DNA of 34,327 nt, from the NCBI GenBank assembly GCA_019449555.1, contig JAGRPN010000312.1:1-34327 (forward strand). The letters run 5' to 3'. The notes under the pieces are model-generated. The model saw nothing but the letters and a program-made list of their open reading frames with translations. It did not search any database and was not told the origin of the DNA. Every line of letters begins with the position of its first letter. Positions within the stretch are counted from its first letter, which is position 1. The translations under genes and the position numbers were made by a program. The stretch is from Ramlibacter sp. (GTDB taxonomy: Bacteria > Pseudomonadota > Gammaproteobacteria > Burkholderiales > Burkholderiaceae_C). Positions 29,030-33,967 of this stretch are shown here, one piece after another.

Positions 29030-29713
29030 ATGAGCACCATCCATCGCATCGCTCCGTCCATTCTGTCGGCCGACTTCGCCCGCCTCGGCGAAGAAGTGCG
29101 CTCAGTCATCGCCGGCGGGGCCGACTGGATCCACTTCGACGTGATGGACAACCACTACGTGCCGAACCTCACGTTCGGGCCGATGATCTGCTCGGCCTTG
29201 AAACCGTACGCCGTGACCGCCGACGGCCGGCCGGTTCCGGTGGACGTGCACCTCATGGTCCAGCCGGTGGACGCGCTGGCACAGGCTTTCGCCCAAGCGG
29301 GGGCCGACTGCATCAGCTTCCACCCGGACGCCTCATCGCATGTGCACCGCAGCGTGCAGGCGATCAAGGCGGCCGGCTGCAAGGCCGGGCTGGTGTTCAA
29401 TCCGGCGGCGCCGCTGGACGTGCTCGACTGGATGATCGAGGAGATCGATCTCATCTGCATCATGAGCGTCAATCCCGGCTTCGGCGGCCAGAGCTTCATC
29501 GAGTCGGCTTTGCGCAAGATCGAGCTGGCCCGCCAGCGCATCGACGCATGCGGCAAGGACATCCGGCTCGAGGTCGACGGCGGCATCAAGGTGGACAACA
29601 TCGCCCGGGCGGCGGTCGCCGGCGCCGACACGTTCGTCGCAGGCAGCGCGATCTTCGGCCAGCCCGACTACCGGCGCGTGATCGACGCGATGCGCGCGGC
29701 GCTCAAGGGCTGA
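29030..29713 (+). CDS. rpe: Ribulose-phosphate 3-epimerase
   Basis: This 227-aa TIM-barrel metalloenzyme interconverts ribulose-5-phosphate and xylulose-5-phosphate in the pentose phosphate or Calvin pathway. All key segments are present: [16 protein letters not shown] (Ser, catalytic Asp), [17 protein letters not shown] (metal His/Asp), [43 protein letters not shown] with the second catalytic Asp, and the phosphate loop VAGSAIFG. Start ATG 29030 has AGGG overlapping it; GAGAAT just upstream may be a -10. Its last 11 bp overlap the convergent small gene. Phosphoglycolate phosphatase, frequently downstream in Burkholderiales, is not here. Confidence 0.96.
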
Positions 29714-30008
29714 ATTTCTTCACCGGGTCGGGCGGTTCCTCGCGCAGCTTCTCGTAGGTCTCGTGGAGCACCGGCCCCTTGTCGGTGTCCACCACGCCGC
29801 GCTCGATGTCCTCGCGCCCCAGCTGGGCCGTGCGCTGCGCGGAAGGTTCACTGCTGGCCTGGCTGTCGGCCGATTCGTCGCGCTCGTGCGGCGCGCGCAG
29901 CGAGCGCTCCTGCTTGTCGCCCTGGACCGGGACCGTGTTGCCCTGGCGCGAAGGCCCTTTGTCCTTGGCCGGGGCCTGGCGGCGCCGGCTGGGAATTCGG
30001 TTGTGCAT
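29703..30008 (-). CDS. Conserved small hydrophilic protein, probably disordered
   Basis: This 101-aa protein has very few hydrophobic residues and abundant Arg, Lys, Glu, Asp, Ser, Gln and Pro: [18 protein letters not shown] near the start, then [36 protein letters not shown], and a C-terminus [13 protein letters not shown] recall similar small proteins in Burkholderiales annotated only as hypothetical. Start ATG 30008 is strongly supported by GGAGGA 7 nt upstream. Codon usage fits the genome. It overlaps rpe's 3' end by 11 bp. Such composition and its place beside catalase-like and KGG genes suggest a stress-related or hydrophilin-like role, but no function can be assigned. Confidence 0.75.
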
Positions 30009-30258: not shown

Positions 30259-30378
30259 ATGGAGTTGCTCGCCGGAATACCGGATTGGTTGGTCTGGTGC
30301 GCCGCCGGCGCCGCGGGCTTCATCGCCCTGGCCGCACTGGCGAGCATGCTCGATGCCGCGCTCGAGCTGGCGAGCTGA
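30259..30378 (+). CDS. 39-aa putative membrane miniprotein
   Basis: ATG 30259 opens a 39-codon frame, MELLAGIPDWLVWCAAGAAG..., ending ALELAS. AGGGAG lies 5 nt upstream, a good ribosome-binding site. One hydrophobic span (~10-32: WLVWCAAGAAGFIALAALA) fits a single membrane helix with short charged ends. A hairpin terminator follows 25 bp after the stop, which supports a real short transcript. I recognise no family. It is too short for codon statistics to be conclusive, so chance cannot be excluded. The frame is open upstream, but only this start has an SD. Confidence 0.5.
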   Translation: MELLAGIPDWLVWCAAGAAGFIALAALASMLDAALELAS

Positions 30379-30461: not shown

Positions 30462-32615
30462 ATGCCACAGTCCAAGCAGGATGCGCAGCGCAAGTCAAAG
30501 GCCGGCGAGGGCGCGGCCAAGCAAAAGCAGCTGGAGGCGTTCAGCCAGGGACCCGAAAACCTCCTCACCACCAACCAGGGCGTGGTGATCCCGGACAACC
30601 ACAATTCGCTGAAGGCCGGCGTGCGCGGCCCGTCGTTGCTGGAAGACTTCATCCTGCGCGAGAAGATTGCGCATTTCGATCGCGAACGCATCCCCGAGCG
30701 CGTCGTCTATGCGCGCGGTGCGGCAGCGCACGGCTATTTCGAGCTGGCGCGGTCCCTGGTCGAGTACACCAGCGCCGATTTCCTGCAGGAGGCCGGCACC
30801 CGCACGCCCGTGTTCGTCCGATTCTCGGCTGCGTGCGGCTCGCGCGGATCGGCCGATACGGTGCGCGACCAGCGCGGGTTCGCGGTGAAGTTCTATACGC
30901 GCGAGGGCAACTACGACCTCGTGGGCGGGAACATGCCGGTGTCCTTCGTGCAGGACGCGATGAAGTATCCCGACCTGGTGCACGCGATGAAGCCGGAGCC
31001 GCATCACGACATGCCGCAGGCGGCGACGGCGCACGACAGCTTCTGGGATTTCGTCTCGCTCGCGCCGGAGACGACCCACATGCTGATGTGGCTGATGTCC
31101 GACCGCGCGCTGCCGCGCAGCTACCGGATGATGGAGGGCTTCGGCGTGCACACGTTTCGCCTGGTCAATGCGAAGGGCGTGCCGCACTTCGTCAAATTCC
31201 TCTGGAAACCCCGATTGGGCAAGCACGCGTTGCTGTGGGACGAGGCGCAGAAGATCGCCGGCAAGGACCCGGACTTCCACCGGCGCGACCTCTGGGAGGC
31301 GATCGCCCAAGGCAATTTCCCGGAGTGGGAACTCGGGCTGCAGCTGATCGAGCAGAGCAAGGCCGACACGCTCGGCTTCGACCTGCTGGACCCGACCAAA
31401 TTGATTCCGGAAGAGATCGTTCCGGTGCTCACCGTGGGCAAGCTGGTGCTCAATCGCAACCCCGACAATTTTTTCGCCGAGACCGAGCAGGTCGCGTTCC
31501 ACCCGGGCCATGTGGTCCCCGGCATCGACTTCAGCAACGATCCGTTGTTGCAGGGGCGGCTGTTCTCGTACACCGACACGCAGATGGCGCGCCTGGGCGG
31601 GCCGAACCTGCACGAGCTGCCGATCAACCGCGGCTTGTGCCCGGTCCACAATTTCCAGCGCGACGGCCAGCACCGCATGCTGGTGAACAAGGGACAGGTG
31701 GCGTACGAACCGAACTCGCTGACTAGCGGCGCGGAATTCCGCGTCGATGGCGGCCGGCAGGGTTTCCAGAGCTACCCGGATGCGCTGGAGCCGCCCAAGA
31801 CGCGGCGCCGCAGCCCGAGCTTCGACGATCACTTCAGCCAGGCCGCGCTGTTCTGGAACAGCCAGAGCCCGGTGGAACGGGACCACATCATTGCCGCCTT
31901 CCAGTTCGAACTTTGCAAGGTGGAAACGCCGGCGGTGCGGCAGCGCGTCGTGGACAACCTCGCGCACGTGGACGCGAAGCTGGCCCGCAAAGTGGCGGAG
32001 CCGCTCGGGATCGCCGTTCCCGATCCGAAGGCCGCGGCCGGACGGGCGGGCTTTCGTGACGTGCGCGCCAAGCTGCCGATCGAAGCGTCGGCCGCCCTCA
32101 GCATGGAAGGCAATGGCGGTAGTATCGCCACCCGCAAGGTCGCCGTGCTGGTGGCCGGCGGTGTGGAGCTGGGCGCGTTGCGCGTGATCCAGCAGGCGCT
32201 GCAGGACGCCGGTGCCAGCTGCCGCATCGTCGCGGCCCATCTGGGCTTCGTCGCGACCTCCTCGGGCCAGCAGCTGGCCGTGGATCACACTTTCGCCACG
32301 ATGCCGTCGGTGATGTTCGACGCCGTGCTGGTCCCCGGCGGGGCGGCGAGCGCCGAGGCGCTGGCGCGCGATGGCGACGCGGTGCATTTCGCGCTGGAGG
32401 CGTACAAGCATTGCAAACCGCTGTGCGTCATCGGCGAGGGCCTGCAGTTGCTTGGTACGCTGGGCATCAAGCTCGGGGAGACGGCCGGCGTGCCGGGCGT
32501 GCTGGTCGGAAAGAACGATCCGCCGGCGCGCGCGCAACTGGCGCAGGACTTCATCGCCGCCATCGCGCGGCATCGCCACTGGGCCCGGCCGAACCTCGAG
32601 GGCATCCCGGCCTGA
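30462..32615 (+). CDS. Large-subunit catalase-family heme protein with altered distal pocket (KatE/HPII-like)
   Basis: The 717-aa protein has the clade 2 catalase layout: a catalase barrel and helical region (~30-500), linker, and C-terminal DJ-1/PfpI-like domain (~575-717; VAVLVAGGVELGALRV, AVLVPGG, CVIGEG, without a nucleophile Cys). The proximal heme ligand is kept: Arg366 and Tyr370 in LLQGRLFSYTDTQ. Arg80, Ser122 and channel Asp136 also match HPII. However, the catalytic distal His (HPII His128, RIVHARG) is Tyr83 here (RVVYARG), and the distal Asn (HPII Asn201 in VGNNTP) is Gly156 (VGGNMP). HPII Val169 and Phe206 correspond to Ala124 and Ser161. The spacing Tyr83-Tyr370 equals His128-Tyr415 exactly, so the alignment is not in doubt. 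Heme binding is likely; normal catalase activity is unlikely. SD GGAG precedes ATG 30462. Confidence 0.93.
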   Translation: MPQSKQDAQRKSKAGEGAAKQKQLEAFSQGPENLLTTNQGVVIPDNHNSLKAGVRGPSLLEDFILREKIAHFDRERIPERVVYARGAAAHGYFELARSLVEYTSADFLQEAGTRTPVFVRFSAACGSRGSADTVRDQRGFAVKFYTREGNYDLVGGNMPVSFVQDAMKYPDLVHAMKPEPHHDMPQAATAHDSFWDFVSLAPETTHMLMWLMSDRALPRSYRMMEGFGVHTFRLVNAKGVPHFVKFLWKPRLGKHALLWDEAQKIAGKDPDFHRRDLWEAIAQGNFPEWELGLQLIEQSKADTLGFDLLDPTKLIPEEIVPVLTVGKLVLNRNPDNFFAETEQVAFHPGHVVPGIDFSNDPLLQGRLFSYTDTQMARLGGPNLHELPINRGLCPVHNFQRDGQHRMLVNKGQVAYEPNSLTSGAEFRVDGGRQGFQSYPDALEPPKTRRRSPSFDDHFSQAALFWNSQSPVERDHIIAAFQFELCKVETPAVRQRVVDNLAHVDAKLARKVAEPLGIAVPDPKAAAGRAGFRDVRAKLPIEASAALSMEGNGGSIATRKVAVLVAGGVELGALRVIQQALQDAGASCRIVAAHLGFVATSSGQQLAVDHTFATMPSVMFDAVLVPGGAASAEALARDGDAVHFALEAYKHCKPLCVIGEGLQLLGTLGIKLGETAGVPGVLVGKNDPPARAQLAQDFIAAIARHRHWARPNLEGIPA

Positions 32616-32759: not shown

Positions 32760-33167
32760 ATGGCATCGAATAACCAGGGGAACGCGGGCGGCGGCACCAA
32801 GGCCGGCGGCACGTCCAACCGCGGCTTCGCCTCCATGGACCCGGAGCGCCAGCGCGAAATCGCCCGGGAAGGCGGCAAGGCGGCCCACCAAAAGGGCACG
32901 GCCCACGAGTTCACGTCCGAGGAAGCTCGCCAGGCCGGCAGCAAGGGAGGCCAGGCCGCTCACGAAAAAGGCACGGCCCACGAATTCGATTCGGACGAAG
33001 CGCGTGAAGCAGGCCGCAAGGGCGGCCAGGCCAGCCACGAAAAGGGAACGGCCCACGAGTTCGACTCCGAGGAGGCGCGCGAGGCCGGCCGCAAGGGCGG
33101 GCAGGCCAGTCACGGCGCCGGCAATCAGGGCACCGGGCATCAGGGCGGATCGAGCGCCAAACGCTAA
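32760..33167 (+). CDS. KGG-repeat general stress protein
   Basis: This 135-aa highly hydrophilic protein contains tandem KGG motifs (GsiB/YciG-like stress_induced KGG family). After a Gly/Asn-rich head and the typical opening FASMDPERQREIAREGGKAAH, a 25-residue unit repeats: GGKAAHQKGTAHEF..., GGQAAHEKGTAHEF..., GGQASHEKGTAHEF..., ending with a partial GGQASH. Relatives are induced by RpoS-type or general stress and are hydrophilin-like. ATG 32760 is chosen with AGGAG upstream; the frame is open to 32664 but without a ribosome-binding site. An inverted repeat ACTCGC/GCGAGT (32667-32672, 32695-32700) lies in the leader. A terminator follows the gene. Confidence 0.93.
   Translation: MASNNQGNAGGGTKAGGTSNRGFASMDPERQREIAREGGKAAHQKGTAHEFTSEEARQAGSKGGQAAHEKGTAHEFDSDEAREAGRKGGQASHEKGTAHEFDSEEAREAGRKGGQASHGAGNQGTGHQGGSSAKR
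32871..33115 (+). repeat. 75-bp in-frame tandem repeat inside the KGG gene
   Basis: Units begin at 32871, 32946 and 33021, with a partial fourth at 33096, each exactly 75 bp and encoding 25 residues. Units 2 and 3 are most alike at both DNA and protein levels, which suggests recent duplication or gene conversion. Confidence 0.9.
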
Positions 33168-33184: not shown

Positions 33185-33214
33185 GGGGGGCGCGCCGTGC
33201 GGCCCCTTTTTTTT
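33185..33214 (+). terminator. Rho-independent terminator after the KGG gene
   Basis: A G-run (33185-33190) followed by CGCGCCGTGCGGCCCC (33191-33206) forms GGGGCGC...GCGGCCCC with a one-base bulge, followed by eight T (33207-33214). It lies 18 bp after the KGG stop and immediately before the next gene. Confidence 0.85.
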
Positions 33215-33241
33215 CCCGGTTCGCGCAAAATGGCGGGTTGC

Positions 33242-33967
33242 ATGCCGCCTGACCATCGCACCACCCAGAACCATCTGCTCGCCGCGTTTCCGACCGCGGA
33301 ATACGAACGCCTCGCGGCCGATCTCGAACTGGTCGCGATGCCGCTCGGCCAGGTGCTATGCGAATCCGGGGGGCAATTGCGGCATATCTATTTCCCCACC
33401 ACGGCGATCATTTCCCTGCTCTACGTCCTGGAAGACGGCGCATCCGCGGAAATCGCCGTGGTTGGCAACGAGGGACTCCTGGGCATCTCGCTGTTCATGG
33501 GCGGGGAAACCACGCCCAGCCGCGCCGTCGTTCGCAGCGCGGGCCATGGTTACCGGCTAAAGGCCGAACTGCTGCAGCGGGAATTCAGCCGCGCCGGCCC
33601 GGTGCTGCGATTGCTGCTGCGTTACACCCAGGCGCTCATCACGCAAATGACGCAGACAGCGGTGTGCAACCGGCACCATTCGGTCGAACAGCAGTTGTGC
33701 CGCGCGCTGCTGCTCAGCCTGGATCGGCTCTCCTGCAATTCGCTCACGATGACCCAGGAACTGATCGCCAACATGCTGGGCGTGCGCCGCGAGGGCGTGA
33801 CGGAGGCGGCCGGTAACCTGCAACGCGCGGGCCTGATCCGCTACAGCCGCGGGCACATCGACGTGCTGGACCGGCCCGGGCTCGAAAAAGCCGTCTGCGA
33901 GTGCTACCGCGTGGTGAAGGTGGAGTTCGACCGGCTGTTGTCGGACATTCCGCGCGAATTGCCATAG
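33242..33967 (+). CDS. Crp/Fnr family transcriptional regulator
   Basis: This ~241-aa regulator has an N-terminal cyclic-nucleotide-binding-like beta-roll (~15-115: LVAMPLGQVLCESGGQLRHIYFPTTAI, EIAVVGNEGLLGISLFMGG), a dimer helix and a C-terminal winged HTH (~165-225: LTMTQELIANMLGVRREGVTEAAGNLQRAGLIRY). The cNMP phosphate-binding Arg/Ser pattern of Crp is not obvious, and the Fnr N-terminal Cys cluster is absent, so the signal is unknown; three Cys occur in the linker region. Start is either ATG 33242 (MPPDHRTTQNH, preferred from family resemblance) or ATG 33230. CAAAAT overlaps the upstream ATG and may be a -10 for a leaderless message. A PAS sensor gene follows. Confidence 0.9.
   Translation: MPPDHRTTQNHLLAAFPTAEYERLAADLELVAMPLGQVLCESGGQLRHIYFPTTAIISLLYVLEDGASAEIAVVGNEGLLGISLFMGGETTPSRAVVRSAGHGYRLKAELLQREFSRAGPVLRLLLRYTQALITQMTQTAVCNRHHSVEQQLCRALLLSLDRLSCNSLTMTQELIANMLGVRREGVTEAAGNLQRAGLIRYSRGHIDVLDRPGLEKAVCECYRVVKVEFDRLLSDIPRELP

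Follow-up and report, generated by a model that had tools for sequence, protein, structure and literature searches.

In heme catalases the distal His is regarded as indispensable, and we know of no described natural counterpart of a catalase that lacks it. In the window analyzed here, a stretch of 34,327 nucleotides from Ramlibacter sp., the gene katE2 encodes a long catalase with Tyr in the place of this His and Gly in the place of the distal Asn, which raises the question of what such a protein may do and how its relatives are built. A survey of the open-access literature by titles and abstract openings, with most subscription journals outside its scope, returned no natural catalase without the distal His. 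The analysis described below suggests that KatE2 may be a heme-type protein that has repeatedly been freed from catalase duty, in most cases with an intact KatE still present, a reading to which we would assign about an even chance.

The Window Protein and Its Active Site

The katE2 gene (30462..32615, forward strand) was recognized from its open reading frame, phmmer and Pfam as a long-clade (HPII-type) catalase-fold gene without the distal acid-base pair. The frame encodes 717 aa with no inner stop, and its product matches PF00199 (residues 36-420), PF06628 (451-513) and PF18011 (556-709); the catalase core, the Catalase-rel domain and the long-catalase C-terminal domain of clade 2 large-subunit catalases are all present. 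Residues 20-717 correspond to residues 64-753 of E. coli HPII (phmmer) with ~53% identity and no gap between the two active-site landmarks. The HPII reference was the katE product of E. coli MG1655, and residues were mapped by MAFFT alignment. In a tree that contained long catalases and no short-chain ones, the protein groups with bacterial KatE, and the solved structures that match it best by sequence are HPII and other KatE. Its score against the NCBIfam HPII equivalog NF008422 is 1042.4 bits, below the cut-off of 1102, and is given here for the window protein alone, not as a separator of altered and intact proteins. Foldseek matched the window model to HPII chains with a TM score of ~0.75 but an rmsd of ~14, the model being of moderate confidence. 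The mean pLDDT of this AlphaFold model is 73, and confidence is poor around the pocket (residues 75-84, 125-129, 162-171 and 173-188), so the pocket geometry was not taken from it.

The initial annotation of this locus had aligned His128, Asn201, Phe206 and Val169 of HPII without a gap with Tyr83, Gly156, Ser161 and Ala124, and both phmmer and MAFFT gave the same correspondence. Its list of four distal changes was correct but short, for it had missed T168->A123 and F214->Y169. The complete set in the MAFFT alignment is therefore H128->Y83, T168->A123, V169->A124, N201->G156, F206->S161 and F214->Y169. The codons, all on the forward strand, are TAT for Tyr83 (30708..30710), GCG for Ala124 (30831..30833), GGG for Gly156 (30927..30929), TCC for Ser161 (30942..30944) and TAT for Tyr169 (30966..30968); the TAT at 30708 and the GGG at 30927 had already been read correctly. 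The residues kept in the window protein are R125=R80, R165=R120, S167=S122, H392=H347, R411=R366 and Y415=Y370, and the alignment thus agrees with the earlier statement that Tyr370/Arg366, Arg80 and Ser122 are retained. Arg366 is encoded by CGG (31557..31559, forward strand) and Tyr370, the heme iron ligand, by TAC (31569..31571, forward strand).

Measured against a working heme catalase, the window protein has the proximal Tyr with its Arg (Tyr370/Arg366), has Tyr83 instead of the distal His and Gly156 instead of the distal Asn. Judged from its sequence, KatE2 of the window is a clade 2 catalase by descent and, by its active site, no working one. The acid-base pair is gone and the heme ligand side is kept, and the earlier suggestion that the heme serves another use is plausible on these grounds.

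KatE2, a Second KatE Paralog in Which Distal Residues Are Often Lost

The window gene belongs to KatE2, a second KatE paralog of Ramlibacter and other Comamonadaceae. Relatives were collected by a scan of genome contigs, in which 80 of 172 relatives were kept, and then by searching the proteins of 200 and 399 genomes of the family, both samples of a larger number, and of 60 genomes of the genus. The nearest named loci are from Ramlibacter and Caenimonas, which would place the window in the Ramlibacter group. Two long catalases occur in this group: canonical KatE, with ~54-59% identity to the query, and KatE2, with ~58-85%.

A row was called altered when it had lost the residue at HPII site 128 or 201. 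Among 85 non-identical KatE2 rows, 46 have both His and Asn and 39 are altered; His is lost in 34 of the 39, and in the other 5 His is kept and Asn is lost. Seven of the 46 'intact' rows (L033-L037, L039 and L098) carry other pocket changes. Left out of these counts were the fragments L160, L164, L175 and L180 and the short catalases L176-L179, while L121 and L146 were omitted from both the counts and the tree. In L098 (genome G016) the distal His and Asn201 remain, but the proximal Tyr415 is replaced by Ser (RLFLST), a loss of the opposite kind; L121 (G241), with His and Asn intact, has an in-frame TAG after ~390 codons, which is either real or an assembly error.

Outside KatE2, 67 other long catalases were compared, comprising the group's canonical KatE and KatE from other phyla, and every one carries His, Asn, Val169, Phe206, Arg411 and Tyr415; a further 20/20 canonical KatE of the genus are intact, and 4/4 short-chain catalases are unaltered at His128/Asn201. 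Ordinary variation among catalases was rejected as an explanation, since 0/67 other long catalases and 0/20 further KatE are altered. When 24 more loci were sampled later, a single new altered locus turned up, L203, with Asn, which lies outside the genus; L186, L187 and L198 of that sample duplicate known loci (L198 repeats L030).

Altered KatE2 proteins are present in named cultured strains, with Tyr at site 128 in R. alkalitolerans, R. pallidus and Xylophilus ampelinus and with Phe in R. albus, R. aurantiacus and R. rhizophilus, as well as in the single-contig genomes G252 and G255. The locus L120, 84% identical to the window KatE2, has Phe/Ala/Ala at 128/169/201, whereas L114, L115, L116 and L117 (83-85% identity) keep both His and Asn. 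Sequencing error is very unlikely, because L120 is altered too and His is lost in named cultured strains. The initial annotation had proposed that His restored in close relatives would speak against a subfamily and for an error or a strain mutation. His is indeed kept in L114-L117, which refutes the single subfamily, although neither a sequencing error nor a strain mutation accounts for the pattern.

Repeated Loss of the Distal His Under Purifying Selection

The losses were followed on a quick maximum-likelihood tree built from 101 rows after 12 trait columns had been masked. Parsimony requires a minimum of 13 changes at His128; counted as losses without regain there are 17, or 16 if poorly supported branches are collapsed and lineages without His that meet at a single fork are taken as one. 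Asn201 was lost 5 times and Val169 9-10 times. A tree constrained to unite the 28 His-lost rows of the genus is worse by 789 log units and is rejected (p-AU 5.8e-7). The expectation that homologs with Tyr at the His position would form one clade thus failed, and a single described subfamily was rejected with it (at least 13 His changes and the AU test). In L135 and L137 (both Tyr) and in L132 (Asn), His is the sole change among sites 128, 169, 201, 202, 206 and 214, and these rows suggest that loss of His often precedes the other pocket changes.

Hand-picked pairs were used for dN/dS: 12 altered, 14 labelled intact (of which the pair of the window protein with L114 is mixed) and 8 canonical. 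The 12 altered KatE2 pairs gave 0.06-0.23 (catalase core 0.04-0.22), compared with 0.04-0.22 for 13 intact KatE2 pairs and 0.08-0.26 for the 8 canonical pairs. Arg125, Arg165, Arg411 and Tyr415 are unchanged in 39/39 altered rows, and Ser167 in 38/39. A decaying gene or an assembly artefact is scarcely credible on this evidence. It could draw on the several nearest relatives that retain His/Asn and on L121, a homolog with His/Asn that carries an in-frame TAG, but the frame of katE2 is open, dN/dS is low in the altered pairs, and like losses occur in cultured strains and in the single-contig genomes. Decay of katE2 was accordingly rejected on the dN/dS of 0.06-0.23, and the earlier statement that the gene is not decaying holds, by its open frame as well as by these values.

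Conservation was counted against the 67 other long catalases because the 'strict intact' rows had also been chosen on eight pocket sites; the result with those rows agrees with that from the 67 alone. Among 172 sites conserved in at least 98% of the 67, 97 are invariant over all altered rows and 133 over all intact KatE2. The sites most often changed, as a percentage of altered rows (intact KatE2 in brackets), are Val169 92 (15), His128 87 (0), Thr418 82 (15) and Phe529 74 (2), followed by Asn201 72 (0), Thr168 72 (0), Phe351 59 (15), Ser414 51 (2) and Phe428 51 (9), and then by Lys96 51 (14), Ile208 49 (28), Asn83 49 (16), Asn202 49 (2) and Asp118 49 (2); the high figures for His128 and Asn201 arise partly by construction because both sites define the altered group, which is not so for the other sites. 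Several of these most-changed sites presumably line the heme.

These data bear on a non-enzymatic alternative, which we regard as the main rival, though less likely than not. According to it, the fold and the heme of altered KatE2 would be kept for stability, the job would lie in the Hsp31-like C-terminal chaperone domain, in mixed tetramers with the intact KatE or in heme storage, and the loss of His/Asn would be drift once another enzyme covers the catalase work. Chaperone activity of the C-terminus has been reported for large catalases (PMC9137513), and the altered rows evolve somewhat faster: the distance to the outgroups is 0.346 vs 0.286 in intact rows, and the KatE2/KatE1 distance ratio within the same genomes is 1.43 vs 1.20, both uncorrected for kinship. 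Partial relaxation would also give such faster rows. Against this alternative, the dN/dS of the catalase core is below that of the C-terminal domain in 8/12 altered pairs and about equal or slightly higher in the other 4.

Restricted Substitutions and Pocket Volume

The substitutions themselves are restricted. Site 128 in the 39 altered rows holds Tyr (12), Asn (11), Phe (7), His (5), Gly (3) and Trp (1). Seven residues lie one step from a His codon, and five of them, Arg, Gln, Asp, Leu and Pro, are absent from this site. Site 201 holds Ala (16), Asn (11), Ser (10), Gly (1) and Cys (1). Phe214 is retained in 26/39 rows; a small residue at 169 accompanies Tyr214 in 5/6 and a large one accompanies Leu214 in 7/7. 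Residue volumes at 169 and 214 are negatively related (rho -0.43, uncorrected for kinship). The summed volume of five pocket residues is less variable than in shuffled columns, with 0.7% of shuffles as low, and the sum for 169, 206 and 214 alone is not clearly so (7.8% as low), both uncorrected for kinship. From these sequence-derived volumes the pocket changes look partly compensatory in size. Summed over the five pocket sites, the side chains of the window protein are ~160 cubic angstrom smaller than those of HPII, the greatest loss of the 39.

The five avoided one-step products at 128 and the partial size compensation both argue against the non-enzymatic account. On the other side, the diverse end states (Y, N, F, G, W) fit one new active site poorly, which argues against a new chemistry.

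Canonical KatE, KatG and Catalase Phenotypes

The genome of the window (458 contigs, given as 96% complete) has a second, canonical KatE (L001, at G000:C358) that keeps His128, Asn201, Val169, Phe206, Arg411 and Tyr415; a search of this genome for KatG gave no match. In 43 genomes of the genus that are at least 90% complete, those that have lost His comprise 25 that possess canonical KatE and 1 that lacks it, against 10 and 7 among those that have kept His (Fisher p 0.0037). This association is in line with the non-enzymatic account, in which another enzyme covers the catalase work, but it loses significance once relatedness is taken into account (8 independent pairs, of which ~2 agree and 0 disagree, too few).

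That altered KatE2 is still a slow working catalase, with Tyr83 or a water replacing the distal His, is quite improbable. Such activity would suit G205, where a Tyr/Leu/Ser KatE2 stands with no match to another heme catalase or KatG, and the four genomes without another KatE (G245, G247, G249 and G250), whose KatE2 keeps His and lacks Asn; mutation of the Asn is said to alter the rate and leave the chemistry unchanged. The H128N variant of HPII, however, is reported to be inactive (PMC9687031, PMC10836395). The catalase-negative report for R. albus GTP1 (PMC9731981), which has a Phe/Leu/Ser KatE2 (L144) and no match to KatG, also speaks against it, but weakly, as an intact canonical KatE (L219) is present there. 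R. aurantiacus AW1 and R. pallidus HM2 are reported to be catalase-positive (PMC9731981) and have altered KatE2, yet they have intact KatE too (L169, L211 and L219 across the three strains). The phenotypes are weak evidence, because all three strains hold an intact KatE and AW1 has KatG in addition. The genome G205 itself is given as 100% complete, and its KatE2 (L155) is the sole heme-catalase match, with none to KatG.

Gene Neighborhood

To the left of katE2 lies rpe, encoding ribulose-phosphate 3-epimerase (29030..29713, forward strand; PF00834), which is found at 52/85 KatE2 loci. It is followed by a gene for a 101-aa hydrophilic protein divergent from katE2 (29703..30008, reverse strand) and, directly upstream of katE2, by one for a 39-aa hydrophobic peptide (30259..30378, forward strand); both products are conserved and have no Pfam match. 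The peptide, by eye, is likely one membrane helix, and the 101-aa protein holds a conserved stretch of 14 residues. Directly downstream are a KGG-repeat stress-induced protein (32760..33167, forward strand; PF10685, four repeats) and a Crp-type regulator (33197-33967, forward strand; PF13545 and PF00027), which in the window take the place of gph.

Neighbor counts depend on flank length, and flanks are short at many KatE2 loci. With flanks of differing length, rpe is on the left in 31/39 altered and 21/46 intact loci, gph on the right in 22/39 and 9/46, and trpE farther on in 17/39 and 3/46. The 39-aa peptide (tblastn) is near 31/39 altered and 18/46 intact katE2, the 101-aa protein near 31/39 and 16/46, and a KGG-type protein near 14/39 and 6/46. 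We tentatively read these as genus markers because intact Ramlibacter loci carry them too. The promoter scan found 0, and terminators numbered 2 vs 2.4 in shuffles.

A heme-based sensor or ligand binder (for peroxide, NO or heme) that is no enzyme would agree with a retained heme ligand set, a lost catalytic pair and the Crp-type regulator gene at 33197. Nevertheless it is improbable, as Pfam gave no fused signalling domain, the neighbors are rpe, gph, trpE and small proteins, and the cluster of the regulator (cluster 14) occurs at 9 KatE2 loci only, the flanks being short in many.

A Possible Route Out of Catalase Chemistry

Taken as an exit from catalase duty, the evolution of KatE2 may be read as follows. 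Loss of His128, with Tyr, Asn, Phe, Gly or Trp in its place, has arisen separately in many lineages of katE2, frequently along with loss of Val169 and Asn201/Asn202, while the conserved sites of the fold, the propionate arginines, the proximal Arg and the Tyr ligand are retained and the gene evolves under purifying selection. Heme would still be bound through Tyr370/Arg366, and with no acid-base pair left to split H2O2, fast catalase turnover would be impossible. The intact KatE present in most such genomes would handle the removal of H2O2. More speculatively, the remodelled pocket might admit a bulkier partner, and the proximal Tyr-Arg pair might then drive peroxidatic, oxidase or organic-hydroperoxide chemistry at the heme.

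New chemistry of this kind (organic peroxide, peroxidatic or oxidase) is unproven and may be called the leading reading of KatE2, with the structural or chaperone rival close behind. In its specific form we advance it tentatively, as a minority possibility: a catalase gene would have been converted many times independently, through restricted distal substitutions, to a heme enzyme that has a Tyr ligand and an activity other than that of a catalase, and the window member, whose pocket is the most open among the 39, would act on organic peroxides or other bulky substrates. The idea of a new function in the initial annotation is strengthened, short of demonstration.

The loss of distal residues in KatE2 is notable through its recurrence. 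KatE2 orthologs show many stages, namely intact, His lost, His and Val changed, and His and Asn lost, and some of these stages are 84-85% identical to each other and occur in culturable soil bacteria. Such close natural pairs make the exit of the catalase fold from catalase chemistry, and its later function, directly testable. Furthermore, the label 'catalase HPII' is no sure guide to activity for many members of one genus.

Comparison With Known Systems

The closest known system is E. coli HPII (KatE), with which the window protein shares the domain order, the Tyr415/Arg411 ligand side, the propionate arginines and the C-terminal DJ-1/PfpI-like domain. It differs from HPII in lacking the distal His128, Asn201, Val169, Phe206 and Phe214 and in falling below the NF008422 cut-off.

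Another system is the coral allene oxide synthase and hydroperoxide lyase, which have a catalase-like fold, a Tyr heme ligand and no catalase activity (PMC5617202). The parallel drawn in the initial annotation stands for the fold and the Tyr ligand and not for the distal side: the catalase-related allene oxide synthase is reported to keep His67, Thr66 and Asn137 (PMC5617202), which makes it no more than a loose analogue. The coral enzymes retain the distal Thr-His and Asn and are fused to a lipoxygenase, whereas the window protein has Val82-Tyr83 and Gly156; the distal Thr-His pair and the Asn that mark membership in this group are absent from the window KatE2. Lipoxygenase was matched in 0/60 genomes of the genus, and the control genomes gave no match either.

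The large-subunit catalase CATPO of Scytalidium thermophilum resembles KatE2 in size class and is described as having an O2-dependent phenol oxidase side activity, which is higher in some heme-b variants (PMC10836395). It differs in being an active catalase, and the available part of that source makes no mention of a natural loss of distal residues (PMC10836395). In the catalase SCC-A, the V111A change gave a wider channel and more peroxidatic activity, and a change of the gate Phe to Val left 10% of catalase activity, abolished peroxidase activity and impaired heme binding (PMC9687031). V111 probably corresponds to HPII Val169, and the gate Phe is taken to be HPII Phe206, where the window protein has Ser. 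By this analogy V111A would point toward, and the gate change away from, a peroxidase role of the window protein.

Finally, crystal structures of engineered HPII exist for H128N, H128A, N201A, N201H and V169C, according to PDB titles (1gg9, 1ggh, 1ggj and 1ggk for the variants at 128 and 201), and the natural KatE2 rows with N128 (11/39) and A201 (16/39) resemble H128N and N201A. Because a structure of H128N exists and this variant is inactive in the reports cited above, the natural KatE2 rows with Asn at 128 are most probably folded and catalase-dead. The engineered variants are single laboratory changes, whereas the changes of KatE2 are naturally fixed, combined and repeated.
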